Shown here one piece after another: positions 50,629 through 57,553 of a stretch of 64,000 nt of DNA. The translations under genes were made by a program, and so were the position numbers. Location: NCBI RefSeq assembly GCF_014196425.1, contig NZ_JACIDR010000002.1, forward strand, positions 496,001-560,000. Direction: 5' to 3'. Position 1 is the first letter of the stretch. Each line of letters begins with the position of its first letter. A model generated the notes under the pieces. It was not told the DNA's origin. It made no database searches and saw only the letters and a program-made list of their open reading frames with translations. This DNA is from Hansschlegelia beijingensis (GTDB taxonomy: Bacteria; Pseudomonadota; Alphaproteobacteria; Rhizobiales; Methylopilaceae).

Positions 50629-51954
50629 TCACAGCCGGTCGCGCAGCGCGTAATAGCTCATCGCGGCGACCAGCAGCGGTCTGCGCAGCCATCGCCCGCC
50701 CGGGAAGGCCGGAACCGGCAGCCGCGACAGCAGGTCGAAACGCTCCAGCCGCCCCGCGACCGCTTCGGCCAGGATCTTGCCGAACATCGGCCCGAGCAGA
50801 ACGCCCTGGCCCGAATAGCCGGCGGCGACCAGCACGTTGCGCCGGATGGCGCGCACGAAGGGCTGGCGGGTCGGCGTGATGCCCAGCACGCCGCCCCAGG
50901 CGTGCTCGATCGCGACGTCGCGCAGCTGCGGGAAGACCTTCAGCATGTGACGGCGCACGATCGGCGCGATTTCGGCCGGAAGCGTGGTCGAATAGGTCTC
51001 GCCGCCGCCGAACAGCAGCCGGCCGTCCGGCGTCGGGCGGTAGTAGTAGACGACGAACCGGCTGTCCGAGACCGCCGCGCGGCTGGTCAGGACCTCGCGC
51101 AGCCGATCGCCGAGCGGCGCGGTCGCGGCGATGTGGTTGGCGATCGGGGCGACATGCGCCTCGACTGCGGGCTCCACGCCTTCGAGCAGCCCGTCGGTGC
51201 AGATCAGCGCCGTGTCGGCCGAAACGGTCCCGCCGTCGGTCTCCAGCGTGACCCGCGCCCCATGCCGGATGCGGCGGACGCCCGAGTTCTCGTGCACCCG
51301 CGCGCCGGCGGCCTCCGCCACGCGGGCGAGCCCGAAGACCAGCGCCAACGGATCGAGATGGCCGCCGCCATGGTCGATCGAGCCGCCATGGTAGTTCTCG
51401 CTCTTCACGAGCGCGCGCAGCTGCTCGCGGTCGAGCGGCTCGATCAGGCCATAGCCGTAGTCCTCGGCGAGCTTGTGCGCATAAGCGTGGGTCTCCGCGA
51501 CGTAGGACGCCTTGTGGTCGGCGTGGATCAGCCCGGCCTCGTAGCGGCAGTCGACGCCGCGCCGCTCGATCGTGTCGCGCAGCAGGACCTTGGCCTCTTC
51601 GGCGAGCTCCCAGAGCTTCCGGGCGTCGTCGCGCCCCGCGATCCGCTCGAGCTCGTCCTGCTCGCGGCGCTGCCCGGTGTGGACCTGGCCGCCATTGCGG
51701 CCCGACGCGCCCCATCCGACGCGCGCCTGCTCCAGCACCACGACCGAGACTCCCCGCTCGGCGAGATGAAGCGCGGCCGACAGTCCGGTGAACCCGGCGC
51801 CGACGATCGCCACGTCCGCCCGGAGGTCGCCCTCCAGCCGTGGCCGTTCGGGCGGCGGCGGGTTGGCGGCGGCGTAATAGGAGGCGGCGGGCGGGAAGGC
51901 GGTCGCAGCGCCGTCATCCCGGCCGAGCGCAGCGAGAGCCGGGATCGTTCTCAC
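50629..51954 (-). CDS. puuB: FAD-dependent oxidoreductase, PuuB-like (gamma-glutamylputrescine oxidase)
   Basis: A 441-residue DAO-family flavoprotein. The dinucleotide motif ADVAIVGAGFTGLSAALHLAERG lies near residue 50, preceded by the PuuB-typical SYYAAANPPPPERPRLEGD. WGASGRNGGQVHTG binds FAD. It would oxidise gamma-glutamylputrescine to the aldehyde. The only in-frame start before the domain is GTG at 51954, overlapping the GIY-YIG stop by four bases, with GAGGAG inside the GIY-YIG 3' end as ribosome-binding site. An in-frame stop lies nine codons upstream. The first 14 residues (MRTIPALAALGRDD) are encoded by the repeat at 51912-51953, so the original N-terminus seems to have been replaced. 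Enzymatic role inferred from the puuA and pot genes. Confidence 0.85.
   Translation of the reverse strand: MRTIPALAALGRDDGAATAFPPAASYYAAANPPPPERPRLEGDLRADVAIVGAGFTGLSAALHLAERGVSVVVLEQARVGWGASGRNGGQVHTGQRREQDELERIAGRDDARKLWELAEEAKVLLRDTIERRGVDCRYEAGLIHADHKASYVAETHAYAHKLAEDYGYGLIEPLDREQLRALVKSENYHGGSIDHGGGHLDPLALVFGLARVAEAAGARVHENSGVRRIRHGARVTLETDGGTVSADTALICTDGLLEGVEPAVEAHVAPIANHIAATAPLGDRLREVLTSRAAVSDSRFVVYYYRPTPDGRLLFGGGETYSTTLPAEIAPIVRRHMLKVFPQLRDVAIEHAWGGVLGITPTRQPFVRAIRRNVLVAAGYSGQGVLLGPMFGKILAEAVAGRLERFDLLSRLPVPAFPGGRWLRRPLLVAAMSYYALRDRL
51912..51953. repeat. Palindromic repeat copy R1 (left of the GIY-YIG gene)
   Basis: The plus strand reads CGTCATCCCGGCCGAGCG, then CAGCGAGAGCCGGGATCG and TTCTCA. 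The CCCGG(C)...GCCGGG arms form a hairpin. It is an inverted counterpart of R2 at 52271-52320 and a member of the same family as 55194-55313. It overlaps the first codons of puuB and the GIY-YIG stop codon. Confidence 0.85.
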
Positions 51955-52247
51955 AATCGGCCGATCTCCTCGTACAGGTCACGCCAGTCGGGATTGTCTT
52001 TCTCGATCAATTCGATCTTCCATGCCCGGCGCCACCGCTTGATCTGCTTCTCTCTGACGATCGCCGCCTCCGCATTGCTGTGAGGCTCGCACCAGACCAG
52101 ACGATCAACGTTGTACCTGGCCGTGAAACCGCGCACGGCATGCTCGCGATGCCGCCAGATCCGCTTCGGCAGGTTGCTGGTGACGCCCACATAGAGGGGG
52201 CCGTCCTTCCGTGTGGCGAGGAGGTAGACGAAGAACCTCTTCTCCAT
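51951..52247 (-). CDS. Small GIY-YIG nuclease family protein between inverted repeats
   Basis: A 98-residue single-domain GIY-YIG protein of the COG2827/YhbQ-like type. The family signature is FVYLLATRKDGPLYVGVTSN, with the two catalytic tyrosines in VYL and YVG. The conserved arginine and neighbouring residues lie in LPKRIWRHREHAVRGFTARY, then the metal-binding Glu region NAEAAIVREKQIKRWRRAWK. The fold appears complete and catalytic. It starts at ATG 52247 after GAGGGAGCCG and sits in frame order puuA-GIY-YIG-puuB on one strand. Its targets are unknown. Neither neighbour has a functional link with a nuclease, suggesting insertion into an existing operon. Confidence 0.9.
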   Translation of the reverse strand: MEKRFFVYLLATRKDGPLYVGVTSNLPKRIWRHREHAVRGFTARYNVDRLVWCEPHSNAEAAIVREKQIKRWRRAWKIELIEKDNPDWRDLYEEIGRL

Positions 52248-52270
52248 CGGCTCCCTCCTCGCGCCACGTT

Positions 52271-52320
52271 CTGGGAACGGTCCCGGCTCTGCGCGGCTTC
52301 GCCGCTCGGCCGGGATGACG
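52271..52320. repeat. Palindromic repeat copy R2 (right of the GIY-YIG gene)
   Basis: Its reverse complement reads CGTCATCCCGGCCGAGCG, a small variable hairpin loop, then AGAGCCGGGACCGTTCCCAG. It matches R1 closely over 18 bases on the outer side and again on the inner side. It begins directly after the puuA stop codon (52321-52323). R1 and R2 thus point at each other around the nuclease gene. Confidence 0.85.
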
Positions 52321-53724
52321 CTAGACGTTCAGAAGCAGATATTCCCGCTCCCAGGGGCTGATCACCCGCATGAAGGTCTCGAACTCGGCGCGCTTGATGG
52401 CCGCGAAGGTCTGCACGAAGGTCCGGCCGAAGACCGACTGCAGCGGGCCGCAGTCCTCGAAGGCCGAGACCGCCTCCAGCAGGCCGCGCGGCAGGTCGTA
52501 GTCGAGCCCGTAGGCCGATCCGTCGATCGGCTCGGAGGGCGTCAGGCCCTCCACCATCCCGAGATAGCCGCAGGCGAGCGTCGCGGCGATCGCCAGATAC
52601 GGGTTGGCGTCCGACGACGGCACCCGGTTCTCGACGCGCCGCGCCTCCGGCCCCGAGGGCGGCACGCGGATGCCGGTGGTGCGGTTGTCGTAGCCCCATT
52701 GCACGTTGATCGGCGCCGAGGAATGCCGGGTCAGGCGCCGGTAGGAGTTCACGTAAGGCGCGAGCAGCGTCATCACGGTCGGCATGTACTTCTGGGTGCC
52801 GGCCAGGAAGGCGAAGAACTCCGACGAGGGCTTGCCCTGGTCGTCCGAGAAGATGTTGCGCCCGGTCTTGGCGTCGCGCACCGACTGGTGGATGTGCATG
52901 GCCGAGCCGGGCTGGTTGGCGATCGGCTTGGCCATGAAGGTCGCGTACATCGAGTGCTTCAGCGCAGCCTCGCGGATGGTGCGCTTGAACAGGAACACCT
53001 GGTCGGCGAGCGCGAGCGGGGCGCCATGCCGCAGGTTGATCTCCATCTGCGCCGCGCCCTCCTCGTGGATGAGCGTGTCGATCTCGAGCCCCTGCGCCTC
53101 CGAGAAGTCGTAGATGTCCTCGAACAGTTCGTCGAACTCGTTGACCGCCGAGATCGAGTAGGACTGGCGCCCGGTCTCGGGCCGGCCGGAGCGGCCGATC
53201 GGCGGCTCGAGCGGATAGTCCGGATCGGTGTTCGGCTTGACGAGGTAGAACTCGATCTCCGGGGCCACGACGGGCGACCAGCCCTTGTTCTCGAACAGAT
53301 CCGAGACCCGCCGCAGCAGCGCGCGCGGCGAGACCTCGACGGGCCGGCCGTCCCGGTGGAAGGCGTCGTGAATGATCTGCCCGGTCGGATCGGACGCCCA
53401 GGGCACCACCGAGAGGGTGGAGAAATCCGGCTGGAGGACGAGGTCGCTGTCCGCCGGGTCGCCGCCGCCCGGCGCGTCCTCGTCGGCGTAGCCGCCCGCG
53501 ATGGTCTGATGGAAGATCGACGACGGCATGTTCATCGTCGGCGACTGGAAGAACTTCTGCGCGGGCATTATCTTGCCGCGGGCCACCCCGGCCTGGTCGG
53601 GCACGAGGCATTCGAGCTCCTCGATGCCGCGCTCGGCGACCCAGTCGCGCGCCGCGGCGGCGTCGGCGGCTCCGCGGCGATCGGCGATGGCCTCCCGCAG
53701 CTCGGCGCGCTTTTTCTTGCTCAT
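52321..53724 (-). CDS. puuA: Glutamine synthetase family protein, PuuA-like (gamma-glutamylputrescine synthetase)
   Basis: A 467-residue glutamine-synthetase-fold ligase without the N-terminal features of GlnA. Conserved parts are APEIEFYLVKPNTD, AQMEINLRHGAPL (metal-binding Glu and His), MHIHQSVRD, WGYDNRTTGIRVP and NPYLAIAATLACG. Length and the SSIFHQTIAGGYADEDAPGGGDPADSD segment favour the PuuA branch, which joins glutamate to putrescine. The context with puuB and a polyamine importer agrees. It heads the minus-strand operon. The start MSKKKRAEL has GGAAG upstream. Confidence 0.87.
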   Translation of the reverse strand: MSKKKRAELREAIADRRGAADAAAARDWVAERGIEELECLVPDQAGVARGKIMPAQKFFQSPTMNMPSSIFHQTIAGGYADEDAPGGGDPADSDLVLQPDFSTLSVVPWASDPTGQIIHDAFHRDGRPVEVSPRALLRRVSDLFENKGWSPVVAPEIEFYLVKPNTDPDYPLEPPIGRSGRPETGRQSYSISAVNEFDELFEDIYDFSEAQGLEIDTLIHEEGAAQMEINLRHGAPLALADQVFLFKRTIREAALKHSMYATFMAKPIANQPGSAMHIHQSVRDAKTGRNIFSDDQGKPSSEFFAFLAGTQKYMPTVMTLLAPYVNSYRRLTRHSSAPINVQWGYDNRTTGIRVPPSGPEARRVENRVPSSDANPYLAIAATLACGYLGMVEGLTPSEPIDGSAYGLDYDLPRGLLEAVSAFEDCGPLQSVFGRTFVQTFAAIKRAEFETFMRVISPWEREYLLLNV

Positions 53725-54075
53725 CTCGTGACTTCCGAACGTCTACCGTCCAACCCGCAGCGGCGGAGCGGCGGCGACCCGAACCGGGCAGCGGCGAGGC
53801 CGCCGGCGTGACGCCGTGGCCGTGCTGCGTTGAGGGCGGCTCCCGGATCGGGTCGGGAAGGAAGGCTGAGCCGCCCCGCGGCGACCGAGCCGCCGGACGC
53901 CGGCGAGCCGGCGCAGGCCGGAGCCTGCCCGACCGCTCGCGCCAAATCAATCCATCGACGCGGTTGCACTGGCGCGGAAATAGGCCCGCAAATCGGTTGT
54001 GCGCCCTGACGCGCGAGGCTAGCCTTTTGGGGTCGTGCCCTCGCGACGGTCGAGGGAGTCAGGGGATCTCGCGTA
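53725..54075. promoter_or_regulatory. Divergent control region between puuA and potF
   Basis: These 351 bases hold no gene that I can support. For potF, a fair promoter is TTGTGC (53997-54002), 17 bases, TAGCCT (54020-54025), about 50 bases before the ATG. The middle part is very GC-rich with imperfect inverted repeats (GCCGCCGGACGCCGGCGAGC, 53887-53910). The region probably carries the operator of a polyamine-responsive regulator, but none is encoded nearby. Confidence 0.45.
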
Positions 54076-55182
54076 ATGACGATCAGAGGATTGGTGGGCG
54101 CCTGCCTGGCCGCTTTCGGCCTCGCGAGCGGCGCGGTCGGGGGCGCGCTGGCGGCTGGCAAGGAAGTCAGGATCTACAACTGGTCGGACTATATCGACCC
54201 GCAGATCCTGAAGGACTTCGAGGCCGAGACCGGCATCAAGGTCGTCTACGACGTCTTTGACTCCAACGAGATCCTGGAGACGAAGCTCCTGACCGGCAAG
54301 ACCGGTTACGACCTCGTGGTTCCGACCGCCACCTTCCTGTCGCGGCAGATCAAGGCGGGCGTGTTCCAGAAGCTCGACAAGTCGAAGCTGCCCAACCTGG
54401 TCAACGCCTGGCCGGAAATCTACGAGCGGGTCGCAAAGTACGACCCGGACAACGCCTATTCGATCAACTACATGTGGGGCACCACCGGCATCGGCTACAA
54501 TGTCGACAAGGTGAAGAAGGCGTTTCCGGACGCGCCGCTCGACAGCTGGAGCCTGGTCTACGATCCGGCCAATCTGCAGAAGCTGTCCAAGTGCGGCGTC
54601 ATGCTGCTCGACAGCCCTGAAGACCTGCTCCCGTCGGTGCTCACCTATCTGGGCCTGCCGCCGGACTGGTCGGACGTGAAGAACGTCCAGAAGGCCGCCG
54701 ATCATCTGGCGAAGCTGAAGCCCTACATCACCAAGTTCCACTCCTCCGAATACATCAACGCTCTCGCGAACGGGAACGTCTGCGTCGCGGTCGGCTACTC
54801 GGGCGACATCCTCCAGGCCAAGAGCCGCGCCGCCGAGGCCGACAAGGGCGTGAAGGTCGAGTATTCGCTCCCGAAGGAGGGCGCGCAGCTCTGGTTCGAC
54901 CAGATGGCCATGCCGGCCGACGCGCCGCACCCGGAGGAGGCGCACGCCTTCATCAACTACATGCTGAAGCCGGAGGTCGCCGCCAAGGCGTCCAACTTCG
55001 TGCAGTACGCCAACGGCAATCTGAAGTCGCAGGAGTTCCTCGACGCGGAGGTCAAGGACAACCCGTCGATCTATCCGACCCCGGAGGTGTTCGCGCGGCT
55101 CTACACCGTGCCGACCATCGAGGACCCGAAGATCCAGCGCGCTCTCACCCGGGCGTGGACCAAGGCCAAGAGCGGGAAGTGA
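54076..55182 (+). CDS. potF: Polyamine ABC transporter substrate-binding protein, PotF-like
   Basis: A 368-residue periplasmic binding protein with signal peptide (MTIRGLVGACLAAFGLASGA, cleavage near ALAAG). The mature start KEVRIYNWSDYIDPQILKDF is diagnostic of PotD/PotF. Ligand-pocket residues occur in YDVFDSNEILETKLL, YMWGTTGIGYN and the SIYPTPEVFARLYT ending. It captures putrescine or a related polyamine for PotGHI. It leads the pot operon, with its own promoter in the puuA-potF gap. A repeat pair follows its stop. Confidence 0.93.
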   Translation: MTIRGLVGACLAAFGLASGAVGGALAAGKEVRIYNWSDYIDPQILKDFEAETGIKVVYDVFDSNEILETKLLTGKTGYDLVVPTATFLSRQIKAGVFQKLDKSKLPNLVNAWPEIYERVAKYDPDNAYSINYMWGTTGIGYNVDKVKKAFPDAPLDSWSLVYDPANLQKLSKCGVMLLDSPEDLLPSVLTYLGLPPDWSDVKNVQKAADHLAKLKPYITKFHSSEYINALANGNVCVAVGYSGDILQAKSRAAEADKGVKVEYSLPKEGAQLWFDQMAMPADAPHPEEAHAFINYMLKPEVAAKASNFVQYANGNLKSQEFLDAEVKDNPSIYPTPEVFARLYTVPTIEDPKIQRALTRAWTKAKSGK

Positions 55183-55193
55183 GCTGACGTGAC

Positions 55194-55313
55194 CGTCATC
55201 CCGGACGACGGCTTGGCCGTCGATCCGGGATCGTCCTCAGGACTTGGCGCAGTTTCGAGCCGCCACGTCTGAGGACGATCCCGGCTCTCCGCTTCGCGCC
55301 GGCCGGGATGACG
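55194..55313. repeat. Inverted pair of palindromic repeats (REPIN-like) between potF and potG
   Basis: The left copy (55194-55240) reads CGTCATCCCGGACG..., then GATCCGGGATCGTCCTCAG. The right copy (55269-55313) is its inverse, CTGAGGACGATCCCGG..., ending CCGGGATGACG. The inner 12 bases GATCGTCCTCAG/CTGAGGACGATC are perfectly inverted. The copies are separated by 28 bases. The core is shared with R1 and R2 around the GIY-YIG gene. Confidence 0.88.
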
Positions 55314-55360
55314 AGTTTTCAGTCGCGCCCTTGCTTCCATCTTCCTCTCCGGATCACCCA

Positions 55361-56527
55361 ATGGCGCTGAAGCCCGCCCAGAAAGCTCTCGGTCCGATCC
55401 GGCGCTCCTTCGCGCCCTGGCTCGATCCGAGCGCTGTCCCACTGATCCGTTTCGAGAACGTCGTGAAGCGCTTCGGCGACTTCACGGCGGTCGACGACGT
55501 CTCGCTCGACATTCACGAGCGCGAGTTCTTCGCCCTGCTCGGGCCTTCGGGCTGCGGCAAGACGACCCTGATGCGGATGCTCGCGGGCTTCGAGGCCCCG
55601 ACTTCGGGGCGCATCACGCTCGCCGGCAAGGACCTCGCGGGCGTGCCGCCCTATCGGCGACCCGTGAACATGATGTTCCAGTCCTACGCCCTGTTTCCGC
55701 ACATGACGGTCGCGCAGAACATCGCGTTCGGGCTGAAGCAGGACGGCATGCCGAAGCCCGAGATGGAGGCGCGCGTCACCGAGATGCTGCGGCTCGTGAA
55801 GCTCGAACCGTTCGCCAGCCGCAAGCCGCACCAGCTTTCCGGCGGCCAGCGCCAGCGCGTCGCGCTGGCGCGCTCGCTGGCCAAGAAGCCGAAGGTGCTG
55901 CTGCTCGACGAACCCCTCGGCGCGCTCGACAAGAAGCTGCGCGAGGAGACCCAGTTCGAGCTGATGGACCTTCAGCAGGATCTCGGACTGACCTTCCTGA
56001 TCGTCACCCACGACCAGGAGGAGGCGATGACGGTCGCCGACCGCATCGCGGTGATGAACCACGGCAAGCTCGTCCAGGTCGCGACTCCGGGCGAGATCTA
56101 CGAACAGCCGAATTGCCGCTACGTCGCGGACTTCATCGGCGACATCAACCTGTTCGAGGGAACCGTGACGAGCGCCCAGGGCGGCCTCGTCCGGCTGAAA
56201 TCGCCGGAAGCGGGGGCGGAGTTCGTCACCGCGAGCGAGGCCGCGCTGCAGCCGGGCGCGGAGGTCGCGCTCGCGGTCCGGCCGGAGAAGATGAGGGTGT
56301 CGCTCGAGCCGCCGCCGGCGGAGGCGACGAACCCGCTCAGGGGAGAGGTCTGGGACATCGCCTATCTGGGCGACTGGACCGTCCTGCTGATCAAGGTCGA
56401 GGGCACCGAGAAGATCGTGCGCGTCAGCCGGGCCAACGTCACGCGCAGCGAGGCGCGGCCGATCGGTTGGGACGACAAGGTGTTCCTGTGGTTCGCGCCG
56501 GACGCCGGCGTCCTGCTGAAGTCCTGA
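55361..56527 (+). CDS. potG: Polyamine ABC transporter ATP-binding protein, PotG-like
   Basis: A 388-residue ABC ATPase. Walker A is LLGPSGCGKTTLMRMLAG near residue 65, the Q-loop MMFQSYALFPHMTV, the signature LSGGQRQRVALARSLA, Walker B VLLLDEPLGALDKK and the H-loop LIVTHDQEEA. The C-terminal TOBE region spans about 290-388. It energises import through PotHI. The start MALKPAQKAL at 55361 lacks a strong Shine-Dalgarno sequence; it comes 48 bases after the repeat pair. Confidence 0.94.
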   Translation: MALKPAQKALGPIRRSFAPWLDPSAVPLIRFENVVKRFGDFTAVDDVSLDIHEREFFALLGPSGCGKTTLMRMLAGFEAPTSGRITLAGKDLAGVPPYRRPVNMMFQSYALFPHMTVAQNIAFGLKQDGMPKPEMEARVTEMLRLVKLEPFASRKPHQLSGGQRQRVALARSLAKKPKVLLLDEPLGALDKKLREETQFELMDLQQDLGLTFLIVTHDQEEAMTVADRIAVMNHGKLVQVATPGEIYEQPNCRYVADFIGDINLFEGTVTSAQGGLVRLKSPEAGAEFVTASEAALQPGAEVALAVRPEKMRVSLEPPPAEATNPLRGEVWDIAYLGDWTVLLIKVEGTEKIVRVSRANVTRSEARPIGWDDKVFLWFAPDAGVLLKS

Positions 56528-56569
56528 GCGCGGCCGTGAGGGCCGCACGGGCGGGAGGCTGACCGCGCC

Positions 56570-57553
56570 ATGACCGACGTTCTCACGCCCGATCCGGAGG
56601 CGCCGCGGGCGGTCGCGGCCGCGGGCCCTCAGGCGGCAGCCGAGCCCCTTGGCGCCGGTGGCTGGAAGCGCTGGCTGCTGATCGGGATCCCCTATCTGTG
56701 GCTGCTCGCGCTGTTCCTCGCGCCGTTCGCGATCGTCCTGAAGATCTCGCTGTCGCAGACCACGATCGCGCAGCCGCCCTATGAGCCGGTGCTCGACCTC
56801 GCCGCCGGCTGGCAGGGGCTGGTCGACTTCGTGTCCGGCCTCCACCTCGAGAACTACTCGATCCTGTTTGAGGACGAGATCTACGTCGCCTCCTATCTCT
56901 CGAGCCTCAAGATCGCGGCGATCTCCACGCTGCTGGCGCTCCTGATCGCCTATCCGATGGCCTACGGCATGGCGCGGGCGCCGAGAAGCATCCGGCCGAC
57001 CCTGCTGATGGCCGTCATCCTGCCGTTCTGGACCTCGTTGCTGATCCGCGTCTACGCCTGGATCGGCATCCTCAATCCGGACGGGCTGCTCAACGCCTTC
57101 CTGATGTGGACCGGGGCGATCAGCGAGCCGCTCTACATCATGAACACCGAGACGGCCGTCTATATCGGCATCGTCTATTCCTACCTGCCGTTCATGGTGC
57201 TGCCGCTCTATTCGAGCCTCGAGAAGCTCGACGAGACGCTGCTTGAGGCGGCGGCCGATCTCGGATCGCCGCCTTGGCGCGCCTTCTGGCAGATCACGGT
57301 GCCGCTCTCGCTGCCGGGCGTGGTGGCCGGCTGCTTCCTGGTGTTCATCCCGGCCGTCGGCGAGTTCGTGATCCCCGATCTGCTCGGCGGCTCGGAGACC
57401 CTGATGATCGGCAAGACGCTCTACAACGAATTCTTCCTCAACCGCGACTGGCCGGTGTCCTCCGCCATCGCCGTGCTGCTGCTGCTGGTGCTCGTCGTGC
57501 CGATCGCGATCTACAACAACGTCCAGGCCAAAGAGCTCGGGGGCAAGGCGTGA
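56570..57553 (+). CDS. potH: Polyamine ABC transporter permease, PotH-like
   Basis: A 327-residue inner-membrane permease with six main helices. The first is WLLIGIPYLWLLALFLAPFAIVL. The cytoplasmic EAA loop is LDETLLEAAADLGSPPWRAFWQITVPLSLPG. The first 35 residues are a hydrophilic Ala/Pro-rich extension. It forms the channel with PotI. The stop overlaps the potI start (GTGA). Confidence 0.94.
   Translation: MTDVLTPDPEAPRAVAAAGPQAAAEPLGAGGWKRWLLIGIPYLWLLALFLAPFAIVLKISLSQTTIAQPPYEPVLDLAAGWQGLVDFVSGLHLENYSILFEDEIYVASYLSSLKIAAISTLLALLIAYPMAYGMARAPRSIRPTLLMAVILPFWTSLLIRVYAWIGILNPDGLLNAFLMWTGAISEPLYIMNTETAVYIGIVYSYLPFMVLPLYSSLEKLDETLLEAAADLGSPPWRAFWQITVPLSLPGVVAGCFLVFIPAVGEFVIPDLLGGSETLMIGKTLYNEFFLNRDWPVSSAIAVLLLLVLVVPIAIYNNVQAKELGGKA

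Follow-up and report, generated by a model that had tools for sequence, protein, structure and literature searches.

The association of CGTC-tagged REPs with small GIY-YIG nucleases is the new point of the present analysis, and it is well supported. It was reached from an element located between potF and potG in the window (the whole stretch of 64,000 nucleotides that was analysed), whose own class is already known. Our preferred reading, to which we attach a probability of roughly 0.55, is that this dimer is a non-autonomous copy of a CGTC REP, that the autonomous form is a REP-flanked GIY-YIG gene, that the nuclease spreads both, and that the hairpin has a role at potF. We infer the action of the nuclease as mobiliser, as well as any effect on the mRNA.

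The element consists of two inverted palindromes with exact CGTC-tag boundaries. A CGTC at 55194-55197 and a GACG at 55310-55313 form its ends, the tag being unpaired and the short palindrome lying inside (Table 1). It starts 11 nt past the potF stop codon (55180-55182) and ends 47 nt ahead of the potG ATG (55361). The outer arms (55194-55210 and 55297-55313, 17 nt) are 88% complementary, and the inner arms (55222-55240 and 55269-55287, 19 nt), spaced by 28 nt, are 95% complementary. A previous sequence-only reading had described two inverted palindromic copies at 55194-55313 with inner arms 28 nt apart, located between the genes of a binding protein and of an ATPase, and all of this is borne out. 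The perfect inner inverted repeat that it gave as 12 bp is indeed present, but it is 16 bp long (55225-55240 with 55269-55284). As for the two neighbouring genes, the NCBIfam PotF and PotG models are their best matches, with scores under the curated cut-offs. Each REP half is also a palindrome of its own, and both stems comprise 8 bp and begin with A-T pairs, within the 8-9 bp of CGTC REP stems. The predicted RNA fold of 55183-55325 reaches -86.1 kcal/mol (z -6.45), and none of 200 shuffled sequences was as stable. Inspected as a possible intrinsic terminator, the stem ending at 55313 is followed by AGTTTTCAG, a short T run offset by 2 nt. In Rfam, no family exceeded the threshold over 51000-57000, where a single sub-threshold match was found elsewhere in the interval.

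Table 1. Features of the window discussed in the text (positions are those of the window).
Feature	Position	Strand	Remarks
REP half, same type as the potF-potG element	51912..51947	+	inner end 3 nt from the GIY-YIG gene stop
Small GIY-YIG nuclease gene, 98 aa	51951..52247	-	catalytic Y, Y, R, E, N present; proposed REP partner
Other REP half of the REP-GIY-REP unit	52278..52320	-	starts right after the TAG stop of the upstream glutamine-synthetase-like gene
potF-like gene, substrate-binding protein, polyamine ABC transporter	54076..55182	+	
Left REP half	55194..55233	+	CGTC tag; stem ATCCCGGA/TCCGGGAT; 18 nt between arms, themselves able to form a small hairpin
Inner inverted repeat	55222..55287	.	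19-nt arms, 28 nt between; the halves can fold as one long hairpin
Right REP half, inverted	55276..55313	-	minus-strand CGTC tag; stem ATCCCGGC/GCCGGGAT; 16 nt between arms (GAAGCGGAGAG type)
potG-like ATPase gene	55361..56527	+	

According to the available part of their description, CGTC REPs occur in all orders of alphaproteobacteria, have a stem of 8-9 bp whose first pairs are A-T and predominantly form head-to-head dimers; families 1-4 have loops of 4-5 nt and a CCA-like tail, other loop lengths being met in some species (Di Nocera, De Gregorio, Rocco 2013; PMC3733652). In the same part of that source, transposase genes were not found in association with these REPs and the mobiliser was left open (PMC3733652). 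The element shares with them, as they appear there, the unpaired CGTC tag, the AT-first 8-bp stem, the head-to-head dimers, the alphaproteobacterial host and the lack of a RAYT, whereas it has 16-18 nt between the arms instead of 4-5, and a CGT tail instead of CCA (PMC3733652). We class it as a variant form of these dimers, since its loops and tail are unlike those of the four published families.

The element had been called REPIN-like. It is an inverted REP pair, but it is not a strict REPIN, because it carries a CGTC tag and the genome search gave no RAYT. REPIN-RAYT systems combine GTAG-tagged REPs with tyrosine transposases. The likeness to them extends to the inverted REP pairs, to the proposed non-autonomous copies and to a small enzyme gene flanked by repeats; the tag, however, is CGTC and not GTAG, and the enzyme is a GIY-YIG protein and not an HUH Y1 transposase. 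A search for the RAYT domain (Y1_Tnp, PF01797) gave no match at E<=1 in the genome that contains the window (G000), and RAYT mobilisation in this genome was rejected for want of a Y1_Tnp gene. Among the 13 genomes of the genus, one has a match at E<=0.01 and 12 have none. The RIME elements of rhizobia were considered, by name alone, as a possible designation of the repeat.

The potF-potG element is one copy of a repeat family scattered through the genome. Its core, GTCATCCCGG, occurs in 22+22 copies in the 3.66-Mb genome (12 contigs), against 1+1 for the reversed pattern, though many of these 44 contexts appear on inspection to lack a palindrome and are probably coding. With a stricter pattern, 15 complete half-units were found, against none for the reversed control, and the five close pairs among them are all head-to-head, with spacers of 29, 30, 30, 30 and 42 nt. 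Two loop types recur (GGCCG... and GAAGCGGAGAG...), and therefore many dimers are heterodimers. With these copies, the genome search rules out a pair unique to this locus and agrees with the mobile origin that the sequence-only reading had allowed for. Across the 13 genomes of the genus, the half-unit pattern finds 0 to 67 units each. In the collection searched, the closest named relatives by PotF are Hansschlegelia plantiphila (85%) and Methylopila sp. Yamaguchi (84%).

REPs of the same type flank a small, intact GIY-YIG gene in the window itself. This REP-GIY-REP unit, at 51912-52320, lies between glutamine-synthetase-like and FAD-oxidoreductase-like genes (named by inspection of the proteins). 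The corresponding site, measured from the stop of the first gene to the start of the second, is filled in G000, G004, G006 and G009, with gaps of 429-443 nt, and empty in G003 and G011, where gaps of 25 and 28 nt contain neither REP nor gene; the other seven of the 13 genomes are uninformative, since no FAD gene turned up in the segment examined. The GIY gene is also found at potF-potG in two relatives. In G012, a left half and a right half are followed by the GIY gene and another right half, the gap measuring 577 nt when counted from the potF stop up to potG codon 26; in G007, the order is dimer, GIY gene, right half. The distance from the nuclease stop to the downstream REP half is exactly 3 nt in all six copies, at both sites (G000, G004, G006 and G009; G007 and G012). 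The potF gene of G007 (G007:C1:2737264-2738357) matches in two pieces, possibly owing to a frameshift or an assembly error; this genome is 88% complete.

The GIY-YIG protein of the window matches PF01541 above the cut-off and thus carries the GIY-YIG domain. The five catalytic positions of the GIY-YIG fold (Tyr, Tyr, Arg, Glu, Asn) are invariant in all 22 aligned proteins of the genus, and all five residues are present in 54 of the 57 class loci in which the five positions are covered. The nearest sequence relative of solved structure is a UPF0213 protein (PDB 1zg2), with the same catalytic domain. In the literature matches listed, UPF0213 and GIY-YIG single-domain proteins are known by fold only, with no link to repeats. 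Likewise, no published GIY-YIG/REP link was found among these matches, preprints (bioRxiv) and most subscription papers lying outside the search. At one locus (L211), the GIY-YIG frame seems to continue into the adjoining repeat, giving a longer C-terminus (SSPGLTRQSIA). Internal stop codons are seen in some small GIY-YIG copies (G317, G301, G328, G250, G150, G094), suggesting decay.

The extent of the association was evaluated with a sequence-free score for inverted repeats running from one flank of the gene to the other (threshold >=14). This score was chosen as the main test because a regular expression for GTCAT-REPs misses divergent units, and some window-type units escape it as well. Across the 13 genus genomes, PF01541 gives matches at 44 places. 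Thirteen long frames (662-780 aa, one per genome) were dropped, taken as UvrC from their length, as were one truncated locus (L207), two frames of 254-266 aa without a hit (L222, L223) and one frame of 439 aa; 23 of the 27 small GIY loci kept have a flanking inverted repeat scoring at least 14. In the class sample, a small nuclease was found in 39 of 115 genomes at E<=1e-12. Of its 71 matches, 68 were examined, two more matches in the genome of the window and a stop-containing fragment being set aside. An inverted repeat flanks the gene in 37 of these 68 loci, as compared with 0 of 254 displaced sham positions at the same loci (Fisher p 4e-30), and the remaining 31 show none above the threshold. 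The strict GTCAT-REP expression detects units near 28 of the 68 loci (14 of 254 sham positions), and on both sides in 10 of the 68 (0 of 254). When potF was used as a control, only one of 104 genes had such a repeat in its flanks.

The association was also found beyond the class. In a sample of the phylum, 41 of 200 genomes gave a total of 72 matches at E<=1e-15; 16 of the 25 further loci examined pass the threshold, versus 2 of 96 sham positions. Outside the class, four of ten loci pass and six fall below the threshold; on inspection of the flanks, all ten have a CGTC- or TGTC-tagged unit beside the gene, on one side or on both. Ten of the 33 records with a hit in the plasmid collection were examined, and eight pass, the 20 corresponding sham values being at most 12. 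Individual scores are 12 for the Planktothrix locus, 7 for Rhizobium K1/93 and 14 for the Spirosoma plasmid locus. Some loci recur between the samples (L224 is that of the window itself, and L292 equals genus locus L192). In plasmid AZO_p3 of Azospirillum lipoferum 4B (L329), the GIY-YIG gene lies between REP dimers and, together with them, separates sufB from sufC in the suf operon.

Within the genus, the type of nuclease varies with the type of repeat. The 27 loci were compared pairwise, 24 syntenic pairs being set aside. Over the 327 non-syntenic pairs, which share members and hence are not independent, nuclease identity correlates with flank similarity (Spearman 0.343), a value reached in none of 2000 permutations (maximum 0.265) that allow for the sharing but not for the tree. 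At an identity of at least 0.7, common flanking repeats (score >=20) are found in 14 of 16 pairs; the proportion is 8% for the 156 pairs at 0.5-0.6 and 2% for the 120 pairs below 0.5. A distant second GIY-YIG subfamily (WVYILRCADGSYYVGS; L181, L197) has another flanking repeat, CTCATGCTGAGGAGCC...GTCTCGAAGCACG. Moreover, at one syntenic site, two nuclease types, each with its own repeats, replace each other (L183, L185 and L187 versus L188 and L192).

The prediction that, in the genus, the number of REPs tracks the matching nuclease failed: the four genomes without it among their PF01541 matches (G002, G011, G008, G001) hold 28-49 window-type units, and the six with it hold 15-67. In the class, the density of CGTC...ATCCA matches is higher in genomes having the nuclease, with medians of 15.8 versus 11.8 per Mb (39 versus 76 genomes, p 0.0005, kinship being ignored) and, for genomes of at least 3 Mb, 19.7 versus 14.1 (21 versus 24 genomes, p 0.01, kinship again ignored); because the reversed control differs in composition, the background of this motif is uncertain and the support given by these densities weak. 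Some of the 76 class genomes in which no small nuclease was found at E<=1e-12 contain many CGTC...ATCCA matches.

The many REPs in genomes without a matching nuclease favor the main alternative, namely that the GIY-YIG gene behaves as a homing-type parasite landing on REPs, which would themselves be dispersed by other means. Homing endonucleases with a GIY-YIG domain are a known class and, at one potF-potG site, a dimer that is bare in the window contains the gene and an extra half. We nevertheless consider this alternative doubtful, in view of the second site, where the two empty relatives lack both REP and gene; therefore, the whole unit arrived or left together. The presence of repeats at either end of the gene, as seen in 23 of the 27 loci of the genus and 37 of the 68 of the class, also argues against it. 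Returning to the preferred reading, the GIY-YIG enzyme is a good candidate for spreading the repeats, because their relatives so often flank its gene, and we give mobilisation by the small nuclease about even odds. In the available part of the published description, no transposase gene accompanies the CGTC REPs, whereas here a GIY-YIG gene accompanies REPs of this type (PMC3733652). Small GIY-YIG nucleases may be the missing dedicated mobilisers of CGTC REPs. They would then form, alongside REPIN-RAYT, a second REP system that uses an unrelated nuclease fold, extends through the Pseudomonadota and possibly further (to judge from the Spirosoma and Planktothrix loci), and ties each nuclease clade to its own palindrome; this broader proposal could, in our opinion, equally well prove right or wrong.

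The place occupied by the dimer was then considered from the side of the mRNA. Of 110 potF loci (80 named and 30 from whole genomes), 109 have potG downstream, and 104 distinct gaps were retained for the potF-potG counts after leaving out five duplicate gaps and one locus in which the downstream potG was not found (L131). Windows of 50 nt around the potF stop were folded and compared with shuffled sequences. The z value dips only at offsets -10, 0 and +10 of the stop codon (means of -3.1, -3.8 and -3.1), with 71-79% of the loci below -2. Outside the genus, the best of these three windows has z<-3 in 74 of 92 loci, which are mutually related and hence not 92 independent cases, versus 2 of 92 at +90 to +110; the other 18 have no such window at the potF stop. 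The mean profile shows no dip after potG (z of -0.03 at offset 0, n=100) or after potH (0.54, n=74), and too few potI loci were available for this test. Across the sampled loci, the hairpins after potF are kept in position and not in sequence. Outside the genus, a T-rich stretch follows the hairpin in 29 of 92 loci, versus 7 of 92 at a control position. In L092, L103 and L110, terminator-like hairpins with a GC stem and a T run stand directly 3' of potF.

In the genus, the slot is variously filled. It holds an ordinary hairpin in G008 and G010, REPs of the window's type in G000, G006, G007 and G012, another CGTC REP (CCTCCGG...CCGGAGGATCCA and kin) in G004, G005, G009 and G011, and unclassified hairpins in G002 and G003; in G001 it is almost bare, with neither a REP nor a strong hairpin. 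For G006 (window type) and G004 (other type), no window falls below -2 at -10 to +10, and it should be noted that windows of 50 nt may miss long hairpins. The mal REP is a stable hairpin located in an ABC operon between the gene of a binding protein and the next transporter gene; the sequence-only reading took it as a model for a stabilised upstream mRNA and a possible excess of binding protein. The potF-potG case has in common with it a stable hairpin at such a place, but it involves another repeat family and is known from sequence alone. For binding-protein genes in general, the comparison is limited to the four SBP_bac_8 genes of the genome. Among the other three, by inspection, L342 has an apparent simple hairpin about 20 nt past the stop, and L340 and L341 seem to run straight into further coding sequence.

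Because the hairpin after potF is kept in position, not in sequence, the role in the upstream mRNA suggested by the sequence-only reading gains comparative support. This conservation supports a putative function in the mRNA, without specifying its kind, and it is plausible that the hairpin would shield the 3' end of potF. It could even be proposed that the element is a regulatory hairpin only, stabilising the mRNA or partly terminating transcription, and that its kinship to mobile repeats is incidental. The position kept in 74 of the 92 loci outside the genus, the flat profiles after potG and potH and the excess of T-rich stretches (29 versus 7 of 92) agree with this explanation. It is nonetheless improbable, as it accounts neither for the other copies in the genome nor for the association with the nuclease, and as REPs of more than one type occupy the slot in sister genomes, G001 having almost nothing there. 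Finally, the idea that REPs and GIY-YIG genes merely accumulate together between genes, without being functionally linked, has in its favor that both are short and intergenic and that the sham positions presumably fall mostly in coding DNA, but it is very improbable given that potF, which has an intergenic gap downstream, gives 1 of 104 and that nuclease type co-varies with repeat type at non-orthologous sites.

According to the preferred reading, the nuclease would recognise its cognate palindromes and cut or nick there or at a target. Cutting would allow the unit of REPs and nuclease gene, as well as dimers without the gene, to spread, frequently to sites just past stop codons; no target-site duplication was readable. 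At potF-potG, the dimer would have landed in, or replaced, a slot that holds an ordinary hairpin in relatives. Once transcribed, it would supply a hairpin there, most likely protecting the potF 3' end against degradation and reducing potG compared with potF.

With a candidate enzyme, cognate repeats, natural empty sites and catalytic residues in place, the question of how CGTC REPs are mobilised becomes testable. Furthermore, a potF slot filled either by ordinary hairpins or by various REPs shows how a mobile repeat could become part of an operon.
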